Origin: Thermoprotei archaeon
GTDB taxonomy: Archaea > Thermoproteota > Thermoprotei > QMSL01
NCBI GenBank assembly: GCA_003650925.1
Contig: QMSP01000011.1
Location: 1 to 48,498, forward strand
Direction: 5' to 3'
Length of the DNA: 48,498 bases
The notes beneath the pieces are model-generated. The model made no database searches, was not told the origin of the DNA, and worked only from the letters and a program-made list of their open reading frames with translations. Positions 3,361 to 7,094 of the stretch are shown in pieces (position 1 is the stretch's first letter; the number at the start of each line of letters is the position of its first letter). The translations under genes and the position numbers were made by a program.

Positions 3361-3768
3361 TCAGTGCTTAGTTATTGGAATCCTCTTGAGGCCTCTTACT
3401 CGATCAAACATCACGTCGTCTGAGACTATGATTCCGTCTATCCGCAGAGCAGAGGCTGCTATTAAGCTATCGAAGTAGCTCAGCCCATAGTCTGCAGTCA
3501 ACTCGATATGTCTAATGAGCAGGGGGATATCGATGGTGTTCACTTCCTGAATGTCATAATCATCGAAGATCTTCCTCAGAGCCATCAATGCAAGCCTTAT
3601 TTCATCAGGGCTTCTACCACGAGACCTCAAGGTGACTTCGAACTCAAGTAATGCAACATCAGGTACAAGGAGTTTGCCTCTTAGCTCATCTATAATTCTT
3701 AAGGCATACTTATGTCTGGGGTCTCTAGGGTTGAAGAGGAATAGCAATTCAGTATCAGCCACTGGCAT
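3361..3768 (-). CDS. vapC: VapC-type PIN-domain ribonuclease toxin
   Basis: This 135-residue PIN-domain protein has the acidic metal-binding set spread as in VapC: Asp5, Glu42/Glu44 in LEFEVT, Asp100 in YFDSLIAA and Asp117/118 in VSDD. VapC toxins cleave RNA (often tRNA or rRNA) and are held inactive by their partner VapB. The start overlaps the end of the antitoxin gene by 14 nt, typical of translational coupling. The N-terminus reads PVADTELLF rather than the usual YVDTN, but the first Asp is kept, so the enzyme looks intact. Confidence 0.9.
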   Translation of the reverse strand: MPVADTELLFLFNPRDPRHKYALRIIDELRGKLLVPDVALLEFEVTLRSRGRSPDEIRLALMALRKIFDDYDIQEVNTIDIPLLIRHIELTADYGLSYFDSLIAASALRIDGIIVSDDVMFDRVRGLKRIPITKH

Positions 3769-4000
3769 CCTTCATCAACCACTCAACAGCTTTCTTCTCA
3801 TCAACATCCTCCTTATAGGGTTCACCAATGACTTCTTCCAGAACTTTGAAGGGATTATCAGGCAAAGGCTCCAGTATGAGGCTTTTTTCTCCGTAAATCC
3901 TTAAGAGTAGCTTCGATCCCTCCTTCAGCCCTAGCTTCTCACGTACTTCCTTGGGAATTACTATGGTGTACCTTTTGCCAACTCTGACAATAGTGGACAT
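3755..4000 (-). CDS. vapB: VapB-type antitoxin with SpoVT/AbrB domain
   Basis: This 81-residue protein begins with an AbrB/SpoVT swapped-hairpin DNA-binding domain (VRVGKRYTIVIPKEVREKLG, then LKEGSKLLLRI) and ends in an acidic tail that should wrap VapC. It binds its own promoter and neutralises the downstream toxin. It is first in a two-gene operon, with GGGATGATGG just before the ATG. Confidence 0.9.
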   Translation of the reverse strand: MSTIVRVGKRYTIVIPKEVREKLGLKEGSKLLLRIYGEKSLILEPLPDNPFKVLEEVIGEPYKEDVDEKKAVEWLMKDASG

Positions 4001-4288: not shown

Positions 4289-4384
4289 GCCGGGGTCGCC
4301 TAGCCAGGTAGGGCGCCGGACTCATAAGGCGCCCTCCCGCGTGAAATCCGGAGGTCCCGGGTTCAAATCCCGGCCCCGGCACCA
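4289..4384 (+). tRNA. Elongator tRNA-Met(CAT) with a 19-nt canonical intron
   Basis: The acceptor GCCGGGG (4289-4295) pairs with CCCCGGC (4374-4380), discriminator A4381, encoded CCA 4382-4384. The anticodon stem CCGGA (4316-4320) and TCCGG (4347-4351) bracket CTCATA, a 19-nt intron at 4327-4345, and A4346, so the mature loop is CTCATAA. The intron is at the canonical 37/38 site. A TATA-like GCTATTTAAG lies near 4249-4258. The 3' end of this gene is the apparent integration point of the element to its right. Confidence 0.9.
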
Positions 4385-4385
4385 T
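4358..4385 (+). repeat. Left copy of 28-bp imperfect direct repeat (attL candidate)
   Basis: This is the T-arm plus 3' acceptor and CCA of tRNA-Met. It matches 7026-7053 at 26 of 28 positions, the only differences being CC versus GA inside the acceptor strand. This is what tRNA-directed integration leaves behind. Confidence 0.6.
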
Positions 4386-4396
4386 AACTTTTATAA

Positions 4397-5311
4397 TCAT
4401 GATGTAAAAGACATTATCTCCTTTGTAAGAATAAAATTCATACCTACGCTATAATTAGCTTTATATGTGGATAGGGGCTTGGGGTGGTCTTTGGGGAGTT
4501 TTCCTTCTAGGTTCTCCTCTTTTATACAAGGTTTTGCCAGAGCTAGGAATCTTCTTGAACTATTACTATCTAGAGATATGATGATGACTGGTCTTGTTCT
4601 CCTGATAACTCTTATCCTATCATTCTCCACTATCTTGCCACTCTTTGTCCGACTTACGCCTATTCTATATTTGAAGCCTGCTCTTTCTAATGCCCATGTA
4701 ATGATTTTAATCTTCGTTAAGTCAGTGTTGCTGAAGTACACAGTTTTCTTTCTCTTTCCTAGACACCCATCTCCCTCGTAGAAGCCCTTTAGGAACGCTA
4801 TCTCATGCTCTTTAATGTATTCCTTTGCAATTTCTGGGTGCTTTTTGATCGTTAACATAAACGAGTAAAATCTCTTGCCGTATGCACACACATAGTGTCT
4901 CTTCTCTTTCCTGATATAGCCTTTGAATGGTCTCAGACCTATGGTCTTCAAGGCATTATATACTTCGTCAACGAATGCTTCATCCTTTACCCTCAGCTTA
5001 AACCTATAACGTCCTTTTCCGTCTGAGTACACATTAGCGTCGCTAAGGCATACCCCTATCAAGTATGCCAGCTTCTCTGCTTTCTTTGGATCTTTTAGAC
5101 AATCCTCTGGATTCCATGGGATCTCTTCGCCGCCTCTGTATGTTCTCCTATCTCCAAGTTTAATTCTGACCAAGTAGTGTAGTGTTGAGTATGGTACTTC
5201 AATTCCATGATGCTCCTTGAGGTACTTTCGTATCCTCTCATATCCATAGCCTCTATCTCTTAGCTCCTTGATTGTTCTCAATATTTCATCGTTATACTTC
5301 CTTACCATCAT
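4397..5311 (-). CDS. LAGLIDADG homing endonuclease with N-terminal helix-turn-helix
   Basis: A 304-residue protein. Residues 1-50 form a helix-turn-helix of the resolvase/insertion-element type (YERIRKYLKEHHGI, then VPYSTLHYLV). Two LAGLIDADG motifs follow: LAYLIGVCLSDAN near 80 and AFLKGFYEGDGCL near 170. The acidic residues at the ends of both motifs are present, so metal-dependent double-strand cleavage is plausible. It is free-standing rather than inside an intein or intron. It ends 12 nt from the tRNA-Met CCA, inside the element bounded by the tRNA repeat. Confidence 0.85.
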   Translation of the reverse strand: MMVRKYNDEILRTIKELRDRGYGYERIRKYLKEHHGIEVPYSTLHYLVRIKLGDRRTYRGGEEIPWNPEDCLKDPKKAEKLAYLIGVCLSDANVYSDGKGRYRFKLRVKDEAFVDEVYNALKTIGLRPFKGYIRKEKRHYVCAYGKRFYSFMLTIKKHPEIAKEYIKEHEIAFLKGFYEGDGCLGKRKKTVYFSNTDLTKIKIITWALERAGFKYRIGVSRTKSGKIVENDRIRVIRRTRPVIIISLDSNSSRRFLALAKPCIKEENLEGKLPKDHPKPLSTYKANYSVGMNFILTKEIMSFTS

Positions 5312-5351
5312 CTCACCTCCATTCCTCCTCTAACGATGTACTTCCTCTTCT

Positions 5352-5891
5352 CTAAGTTCCTTGATAGGCATAGTACCTTGTGTGCCTTATTGCTCTTCTT
5401 GCCTTAGATAACTCTCGCATTGGTATATACAAAGTGTATCCCTCATTACCATGACATATGCTGTACCCCATTCCCAACCTATCCAAGCACTCTATGGCTA
5501 GGTCAACGTACTCCACTCTTCTAATGCTTACCATGATGTAGCTACCCATGTATTGACAGTCTCCAGCTCCGAGGAAGCCTCTTAAGAAGTCCACCTCATA
5601 ACCATTTATCCACTTCCATGATCTTTTCCTTAAGCTCTCTAGGATCTCTGTGAATCTCTCATCATGACAGAGAACTCTAAAGTATGCCCTTCTCTTCTTC
5701 TCATCATAGTACTCCTCGGCTTCACAGTGAAGCCCTAGCCTCCTAAATGCTCCCCTTACCGCCTCCACAACCTCTACACCTCTTACTCGAAGAGTATTGC
5801 ACTCATCAGCTTCTGAGGAGAGGCTTCCCAATACTGCACCTACTATAAACGCTAGTGCACGCCCCCTCTTCGCATTCCATGACATGGGCAT
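5352..5891 (-). CDS. Degenerate LAGLIDADG-type protein
   Basis: This 179-residue protein is a paralogue of the homing endonuclease downstream. RALAFIVGAVLGSLSSEAD occupies the position of the first LAGLIDADG motif and VDFLRGFLGAGDC the second. The first motif has Ser-Ser-Glu where a catalytic Asp is expected, so cleavage activity may be lost and a DNA-binding role is possible. It lacks the N-terminal helix-turn-helix, but the winged-helix gene 5 nt upstream could supply that part as a separate protein. Confidence 0.65.
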   Translation of the reverse strand: MPMSWNAKRGRALAFIVGAVLGSLSSEADECNTLRVRGVEVVEAVRGAFRRLGLHCEAEEYYDEKKRRAYFRVLCHDERFTEILESLRKRSWKWINGYEVDFLRGFLGAGDCQYMGSYIMVSIRRVEYVDLAIECLDRLGMGYSICHGNEGYTLYIPMRELSKARRAIRHTRYYAYQGT

Positions 5892-5896
5892 TCAAA

Positions 5897-6163
5897 TCAC
5901 CTCCATAGCGGTGAGCCTTTCCTTATTATGTATTTCTTTCCCATCTTATTCCTCTTAACTTCAAGCAATCCTTGCTCTGCTAAGTGATCTAGATAGGCTG
6001 AAATCAGTACTAAGCTACCTCCTCTTCCACGAACGCCTAGTACCTTGCCTACATCCCTAGCTCTGAAAGTAGCCATATCTCCCCTATGACTCCTCGTCAA
6101 CTCTTTTATAGCCTCGAGAACTAGCTTTTCACTAATCATGCTAATCACCTCATTACGAGTCAT
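5897..6163 (-). CDS. Small winged-helix DNA-binding protein
   Basis: An 88-residue single-domain winged helix: helices at EKLVLEAIKEL, ARDVGKVLG and LISAYLDHLAEQGLL, then a wing KRNKMGKKYIIRKGSPLW. It is first in a minus-strand pair with the LAGLIDADG-type gene. The C-terminal IR(K/R)GSPLW is shared with the divergent plus-strand gene at 6290, so the two are paralogues. It is probably a regulator of the element or a specificity partner; I cannot name a closer family. Confidence 0.65.
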   Translation of the reverse strand: MTRNEVISMISEKLVLEAIKELTRSHRGDMATFRARDVGKVLGVRGRGGSLVLISAYLDHLAEQGLLEVKRNKMGKKYIIRKGSPLWR

Positions 6164-6289
6164 TTACCTTGCTCTAATCTCTTCAATGAAGTCCACGATA
6201 TACTCAAGGTTATTATTGACCTGTTCAAGGATATTGTTAAGATCCTTGATGTTCTTGTTCGGCTCCTCTTAGAGGGTCAGAGAGGGGGT

Positions 6290-6475
6290 ATGGTAACATT
6301 TACTCCAACCAAGTTAGCGAAAATACTTGGCATTAAGCCACTATCAGTCTACCTATCAATAATCCATCACTATTTGAAGGAGTTAGCAGAAGAGGGTCTT
6401 ATTGAACCATTCCCACAGAGGAATCGCTGTAGGTATGTGATTAGGAGAGGTTCTCCACTATGGAAGGCTACATGA
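6290..6475 (+). CDS. Small winged-helix protein, paralogue of the divergent gene
   Basis: A 61-residue winged helix ending VIRRGSPLW, aligned over its length with the protein encoded at 5897-6163. Coding similarity continues about 30 codons upstream of this ATG in the same frame (VKILDVLVRLLLEGQRGG matches the first helix of the paralogue), yet that stretch has no ATG, GTG or TTG. Either the gene is now truncated to the ATG at 6290, which follows GAGGGGGT, or an unusual start is used. The stop overlaps the next gene as ATGA. Confidence 0.6.
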   Translation: MVTFTPTKLAKILGIKPLSVYLSIIHHYLKELAEEGLIEPFPQRNRCRYVIRRGSPLWKAT

Positions 6476-6726
6476 TGATCATTCCTAGATACAGGGTAAC
6501 AATTGGCGAACAGCATAAGTATCTAGCTGAGTATATCATTAAGCTTGATGGAGAGGTTAGAAGAGAGTGGGTTCTCTTTGATAGCAATAATGTGAACTTC
6601 TTTTCCTCACTTGATGAGGTCTTTGAGTTCATCACCAAGAACCATGAGATTGTTATCATTAAACCTTTGAAGAGGTTGAGGAGGCGATTCTCCTGCGTTG
6701 GAAATATCTTCATCAGCTTATTTTAG
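6472..6726 (+). CDS. Unknown element protein, translationally coupled, 3' part frame-disrupted
   Basis: The start chosen is ATG 6472, which overlaps the stop of the preceding gene as ATGA and has GGAAGG 4 nt before it; ATG 6460 is also possible. The protein begins MMIIPRYRVTIGEQHKYLAEY and is mostly beta-rich then helical. I do not recognise a family. After about residue 63 its own frame ends quickly, while a convincing coding frame, shifted by -1, opens at 6663. The two frames may once have been one gene or may be joined by frameshifting. Confidence 0.45.
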   Translation: MMIIPRYRVTIGEQHKYLAEYIIKLDGEVRREWVLFDSNNVNFFSSLDEVFEFITKNHEIVIIKPLKRLRRRFSCVGNIFISLF

Positions 6727-7094
6727 ACGTTCTATCTAAGGGGGATGGTATCTCTATTTGTGAGCTGTGTAGGAGGGTTAATGGTAAGCATCTCTATGAT
6801 TGTCTTCACTGTAGATACTATCTTAATCCTAGAAGGCGAGAGCAGAGGTATGTTAGGGATGCTGGATGTAAGTTCAAACTATACCAAATTAGGCAGGCAG
6901 TTAAGGAGCTTGAAAGACTAGGTTATGTGATGACTAGAAGAGAGAAGAGGAATGATAAGAGACAGTATAGAGGATGGGACTGGATGAAAATAATCTACCT
7001 AAAAGACAAACACCTAGAAAGACCTCGGGTTCAAATCCCGGCCGAGGCACCATTCAATCCTCGTCTATGTCTAACTTTGGCCTTGTCTTCATGA
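6663..7094 (+). pseudogene. Zinc-ribbon winged-helix reading frame without a start codon
   Basis: The frame from 6663 to the TGA at 7092-7094 is open for 143 codons and reads like a real protein: EEVEEAILLRWKYLHQLILD, a cysteine-rich segment with CELC, CLHC and a further Cys, then a helix pair QIRQAVKELERLGYV and a basic tail. It has no ATG, GTG or TTG before about 6935. The preceding gene reaches it only through a -1 frame change near 6660-6680. Its last 30 codons run through the tRNA-like repeat, consistent with decay or with insertion into the repeat. Confidence 0.5.
7026..7053 (+). repeat. Right copy of the tRNA 3'-end repeat (attR candidate)
   Basis: T-loop TTCAAAT with CCCGG, then CCGAGGC, A and CCA, that is a tRNA 3' end with no 5' half nearby. 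It matches the tRNA-Met 3' end at 26 of 28 positions. The two differences destroy pairing with the tRNA-Met acceptor, so it is not a functional alternative exon for that gene. Confidence 0.6.

Follow-up and report, generated by a model that had tools for sequence, protein, structure and literature searches.

An integrase-less element behind a Thermoprotei tRNA-Met gene belongs to a multi-copy LAGLIDADG family that probably homes into tRNA genes

The mORF hybrid genes of fungal mitochondria (atp6 in Allomyces; atp6, atp9, cox2 and nad3 in Glomus; atp9 in Rhizopus) carry a free-standing endonuclease gene inserted together with a foreign copy of the 3′ part of the target gene; the native 3′ part lies displaced downstream and is the one of the two that more closely resembles the sequence of relatives (PMC3630166). 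Elements of the SSV type and other tyrosine-recombinase elements target the 3′ end of tRNA genes, restore the tRNA and displace the host 3′ end to their distal border (PMC8371274), and SegB of phage T4 is a homing endonuclease aimed at a tRNA region (PMC2988022). We have analyzed a stretch of 48,498 nucleotides from a Thermoprotei archaeon (contig QMSP01000011.1 of assembly GCA_003650925.1; this whole stretch is referred to below as the window), in which an element with a LAGLIDADG homing endonuclease gene lies between a tRNA-Met gene and an orphan copy of the 3′ end of that tRNA. The locus is one copy of a multi-copy family and not a lone integrase-type remnant. We consider it probable that the family consists of integrase-less homing elements which invade tRNA genes by intronless homing with a built-in rescue. 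The parts of the window locus on which this proposal rests are:

4289..4384, + strand: functional tRNA-Met(CAT) gene with an intron and an encoded CCA (Rfam RF00005, 58 bits; orthologues in relatives G001-G003)
4385..4435, + strand: conserved left end of the element family (TAAnTTTnATAATC...), T-rich, starting directly after the CCA
4397..5311, - strand: intact LAGLIDADG homing endonuclease gene, 304 amino acids (aa), convergent with tRNA-Met (PF14528, LAGLIDADG_3, E 1.6e-10)
6663..7020, + strand: broken winged-helix gene (C-terminal winged helix-turn-helix frame lacking a start codon), belonging to the conserved right end
7021..7052, + strand: orphan tRNA 3′ end (T-arm, acceptor strand and CCA; 26/28 match), a displaced or decayed tRNA-Met 3′ end

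The module repeated at the far end of the element comprises the T-arm and the acceptor 3′ strand of tRNA-Met (about 4353-4384). The 28-nt tRNA-Met 3′ end at 4358-4385 is identical at 26 of 28 positions to 7026-7053, 2.67 kb downstream. Since shuffled windows reach only 21/28 (the top match in 30 of them) and every other match of at least 22/28 in the window is a genuine tRNA, the repeat is real. The near-copy reported in the original prediction thus stands, and its location was correct, although its exact ends were not, as the repeat begins earlier (7021) and stops at the CCA (7052). That prediction also described the sequence between the repeats as accessory, with homing-endonuclease, winged-helix and broken genes and no integrase, and this is borne out by Pfam, PHROGs and NCBIfam, which revealed no integrase, recombinase or transposase in the element. 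The two mismatches of the orphan had been said to pair with neither tRNA 5′ half; a matching 5′ half was sought in the genome and not found, and the CCGAGGC acceptor of the orphan is unique to it among the tRNA 3′ ends of the genome. Of the proposed integrated element with an att repeat we retain the insertion at the 3′ end of the tRNA gene, with a displaced piece of tRNA as its far border; the integrase-type reading is without support.

The LAGLIDADG gene is present in about 10 copies in the genome. Six lie directly behind tRNA-Met, -Arg(CCT), -Ser(GGA), -Tyr(GTA), -Asn(GTT) and -Pro(GGG), all of them convergent with the tRNA, and four lie away from tRNAs on contigs C6, C9, C21 and C28. All six tRNA-linked copies share the sequence that follows the CCA. 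Made into a profile, this left end also matches a seventh, solo copy after tRNA-Leu(CAA) (E 7e-4; L085:2779-2711, contig C12), which is a fossil insertion. Solo left ends of similar appearance at tRNA-Ala and tRNA-Pro(TGG) were not significant and were dropped. The right end with the broken winged-helix gene recurs at two contig starts, each of which runs into an orphan tRNA 3′ end: the DNA at 6663..7020 is 80% identical over 357 nt to C13:491-846 and 83% identical over 157 nt to C50:737-892, and in both cases the similarity stops at the tRNA 3′ end. The acceptor of one of the two orphans is that of a tRNA-Tyr whose own element is truncated where its contig ends, from which we infer that the two contigs belong together.

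The 304-aa protein has an N-terminal extension resembling a helix-turn-helix (HTH), followed by two LAGLIDADG motifs (LAYLIGVCLSDA and FLKGFYEGDG) whose acidic residues are retained in the alignment. Its AlphaFold2 model resembles I-DmoI (Foldseek E 4.6e-9), and I-DmoI is also the best match of the sequence profile in the PDB. As judged from its domain, motifs and modelled fold, the protein is a LAGLIDADG homing endonuclease of the I-DmoI type, and it is predicted to cleave the unoccupied allele site-specifically.

Across the phylum, the nuclease is present in 56 of 398 Thermoproteota genomes, and the family is absent from the three order relatives examined. We read 69 nuclease loci with their flanks. 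Pattern matching placed 29 of them convergent with a tRNA T-arm and ARAGORN added two more (L250 and L268), so that about 31/69 are convergent behind a tRNA gene, all within about 350 bp, compared with 16/264 control open reading frames (ORFs) with a convergent T-arm within 450 bp. Past the nuclease gene, the 3′ end of the adjoining tRNA occurs once more at tRNA-Thr(GGT), -Ala(TGC), -Pro(CGG), -Thr(CGT), -Lys(TTT) and -Pro(GGG), and a partial one at tRNA-Arg(TCG), making seven loci with a duplicate; several isotypes are assigned from the anticodon where ARAGORN gave another name. An orphan was sought and not found at a tRNA-Phe with a convergent nuclease in G048 (L125:1216-2415). Outside the archaea, a Portnoybacteria contig (a bacterium of the Candidate Phyla Radiation, CPR; L118:4326-5037) carries tRNA-Leu(CAA), a 193-aa LAGLIDADG gene and, no more than 40 bp beyond that gene, a copy of the tRNA-Leu 3′ end. 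This is an exact match of 15 nt at the predicted position, where shuffled sequence gave a maximum of 14 under a local-alignment null. Because the nuclease gene is alone between the tRNA and the repeat in this case, we regard the nuclease as the likely mobility gene.

The family has no relatives in phages or plasmids and only remote matches in viral contigs, and the Portnoybacteria nuclease has none in phages, plasmids or viral contigs. The LAGLIDADG genes behind tRNA-Phe in G048 and tRNA-Leu in Portnoybacteria fall outside the main family clades, which suggests that the habit of sitting behind tRNA genes arose repeatedly or is old.

The homing endonuclease tree follows the host genome (18 changes, where shuffling gives at least 25) and shows no clustering by tRNA identity (24 changes, against a shuffled median of 24), indicating that the elements change target. 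In G211, closely related nucleases occupy Ser, Pro and Val tRNA genes. Occupied tRNAs are not significantly enriched in introns (17/28 versus 13/33, p 0.13).

To which copy the original 3′ end belongs can be judged from the paired 3′ ends. Over nine tabulated pairs the acceptor strand is the same at 60/63 positions and the T-stem at 66/90 (Fisher p 4e-4); conserved acceptors combined with differing T-stems are what would be expected if a self-contained 3′ module had been swapped. The T-stem is paired at 5/5 positions in each working tRNA. For tRNA-Arg(CCT), the T-stem of relatives G001 and G027 is that of the orphan, unlike that of the working tRNA. The tRNA-Lys(TTT) orphan matches the tRNA 3′ end found in relatives at every position, an unusual T-loop G among them, and the working tRNA departs from the relatives on both T-stem strands. 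For tRNA-Thr, relatives share the T-stem of the orphan, and for tRNA-Tyr, relatives have another acceptor. Four cases are informative, the tRNA-Met of the window not being among them, and in three (Arg, Lys and Thr) these sequence comparisons suggest that the element gave the tRNA a new 3′ end and displaced the original one. The neighborhood of tRNA-Lys supports insertion, though the empty site is not perfectly clean: in G308 the tRNA lies directly before rpoH-rpoB with no element, and in G260 the element, the orphan and two further genes lie between them. For the suggested empty-site comparison at tRNA-Met, no synteny was found with the order relatives: fdhD is absent from them, and none of the genes of the window turned up close to their tRNA-Met.

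From this standpoint, the endonuclease would cut the 3′ part of an unoccupied tRNA gene, and repair from an element-bearing copy would insert the nuclease gene and its cargo. The same repair would co-convert the tRNA 3′ end, with the donor T-arm and acceptor strand keeping the gene working, whilst the host's own 3′ end would be pushed to the far side and decay. An altered or interrupted T-arm would shield a tRNA gene, once occupied, from being cut again. For the copy in the window, the target would be tRNA-Met, with a nuclease gene that looks intact, an orphan with a few changes and a cargo that is partly broken. A broader proposal, about which we are slightly more doubtful than confident, is that these natural home-and-rescue elements, a family found throughout the phylum, have an essential RNA family with many genes as their target: a single nuclease lineage would hop between the tRNA genes of one genome by cutting their shared T-arm region, would always leave a working tRNA and would thereby swap tRNA 3′ halves between species.

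Several observations weigh against homing with a replacement 3′ end. At tRNA-Asn the polarity is the opposite, the working copy being ancestral and the orphan changed, and in the window itself the working tRNA-Met equals that of relatives and it is the orphan that carries several changes. Roughly half of the family loci lie beside no tRNA, and a recognizable orphan is missing from most of the copies that do, often with a contig end at that place. The genomes are fragmented, and the tRNA-Tyr case relies on joining two contigs. The repeat length of 30 nt by itself also fits a tyrosine recombinase, and the model leaves the source of a matching acceptor strand after a target switch unexplained.

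The repeat geometry is what integration by a tyrosine recombinase classically gives, namely a tRNA 3′ target, a direct repeat of ~30 nt, a restored tRNA and a displaced original end. The att sites of archaea moreover differ in length (PMC8371274), and the att-like direct repeat is located in the tRNA 3′ end here. The locus might then be an integrative element, SSV-like or a plasmid, at a tRNA attB, with its integrase lost or acting in trans and the endonuclease a passenger. We think this unlikely, because the only gene common to all copies, which sit at many tRNA genes, is the LAGLIDADG homing endonuclease, alone in the CPR case, and because the T-stems differ between repeat copies in the three testable cases, in which a replacement 3′ end appears to have been brought. 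Furthermore, the window element has no recombinase gene, the endonuclease gene adjoins the tRNA and is convergent with it in the archaeal copies, and att cores must match but most of the pairs differ in the T-stem.

Alternatively, the endonuclease could home into the trailer behind tRNA genes, as T4 SegB targets a tRNA intergenic region (PMC2988022), with the orphan a separate tandem duplication from break repair that has no replacement function. This would suit the lineages in which the shared left end begins about 10 nt past the tRNA, and the many copies from which the orphan is missing. A simple duplication would not, however, change the T-stem of the working tRNA on both strands, as has happened for Arg, Lys and Thr, and we rate this explanation as quite improbable. 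Thermoproteota also possess split and permuted tRNAs and tRNA fragments (PMC3218864), so that 7021-7052 might be a decayed second tRNA gene or a split-tRNA half, with ordinary intergenic accessory genes before it. But no 5′ half of matching acceptor was found in the genome, the repeat lies at the right end that is conserved in this multi-copy element, and the same layout is seen at many other tRNAs, making this origin very hard to credit. A mobile group I or bulge-helix-bulge intron was rejected, as the element begins after a complete tRNA with CCA and there is no group I intron family match in Rfam.

The remaining features of the element comprise a sequence motif within the nuclease gene and the genes between the nuclease and the right end:

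4475..4496, + strand: 3′-terminal G-rich motif GGGCTTGGGGTGGTCTTTGGGG of the endonuclease gene, with conservation at the DNA level
5352..5891, - strand: degenerate second LAGLIDADG copy, 179 aa, with the motif acidic residues lost (family profile E 1.3e-32)
5897..6163, - strand: small winged-helix-like protein, 88 aa, with 70% identical copies in elements at contigs C1 and C17
6290..6475, + strand: small winged-helix-like protein, 61 aa, with a weak HTH match
6460..6726, + strand: predicted ORF, 88 aa, with no assigned function

The degenerate LAGLIDADG copy gave no match in a Pfam search. The left end at 4385..4435 may double as the terminator of the tRNA. The G-rich motif occurs at eight loci, and the C-termini of the homing endonucleases read it in three different frames. 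Beyond the window it is found, as GGGCTTGGGGTGGCCTTTGGGG, at L071:3103, L073:10625, L074:3082, L075:266, L077:5882, L078:6124 and L105:5878, and other lineages have a different G-rich stretch in the equivalent place of the endonuclease gene. A terminator, an insulator or a protein site are possible roles for it. A C-terminal SPLW motif is common to the 88-aa and 61-aa winged-helix-like proteins of the element and to a conserved small winged-helix gene beside tRNA-Ile/ileS (L083:3898-4212, L202:956-1249), and the element may have taken such a gene from the host. The tRNA-Ile locus L083 was itself rejected as an element, the winged-helix gene there being a conserved host gene.

Three further observations concern the surroundings of the family. 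Just upstream of the tRNA-Met gene, at 3361-4000 of the window, is a toxin-antitoxin-like pair of the PIN-domain and MazE type (AbrB fold). The copy on contig C6 (L078:4446-6156), which has no tRNA, lies between nusA and rps12 in an RNA polymerase and ribosomal protein operon. In G246 and G155 (L242:4868, L259:5673, L261:412, L288:5888), two hairpins, one of them T-arm-like, stand just before the start codon of the endonuclease, inside an outer stem whose sequence differs but whose pairing is kept; they could be an operator that mimics the target, or a structured RNA.

The open-access literature searched yielded no account of tRNA genes arranged in this way, which is not proof of novelty. If our proposal is true, homing with a replacement gene end reaches beyond the protein genes of mitochondria to tRNA genes, in a host phylum known for fragmented, intron-rich tRNA genes. 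It would provide a concrete source for orphan tRNA 3′ fragments, for which integrases are usually held responsible, and would parallel, in nature, the home-and-rescue gene drives that have been engineered (PMC7968924). It predicts hybrid tRNA genes, which is directly testable. On the broader proposal of a hopping nuclease lineage, the elements would in addition represent a hidden source of archaeal tRNA gene evolution, possibly including fragmented tRNA genes.

Amongst the known systems, an endonuclease of a group I intron in tRNA-fMet also targets a tRNA gene but is made harmless by its self-splicing intron, and the account that cites it (PMC3984707) describes no replacement end. T4 SegB differs from the window protein in being a GIY-YIG enzyme that inserts between tRNA genes, with no replacement tRNA end described there (PMC2988022). 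I-DmoI, the closest protein in both profile and fold, is similarly a monomer with two LAGLIDADG motifs but resides in a spliced archaeal 23S rRNA intron, whereas the window protein has the extra N-terminal HTH and lies outside introns. The present elements share the geometry of SSV-type elements but lack a recombinase, are much smaller (0.6-3 kb), universally carry the endonuclease and have repeat copies that differ in the T-stem. The closest likeness in the layout of insert and displaced end is to the mORF genes. Those, however, are mitochondrial protein genes, whilst the targets here are tRNA genes of archaea and of one CPR bacterium; the archaeal nuclease gene is convergent with its target, and a single genome can have many of its tRNA genes occupied.

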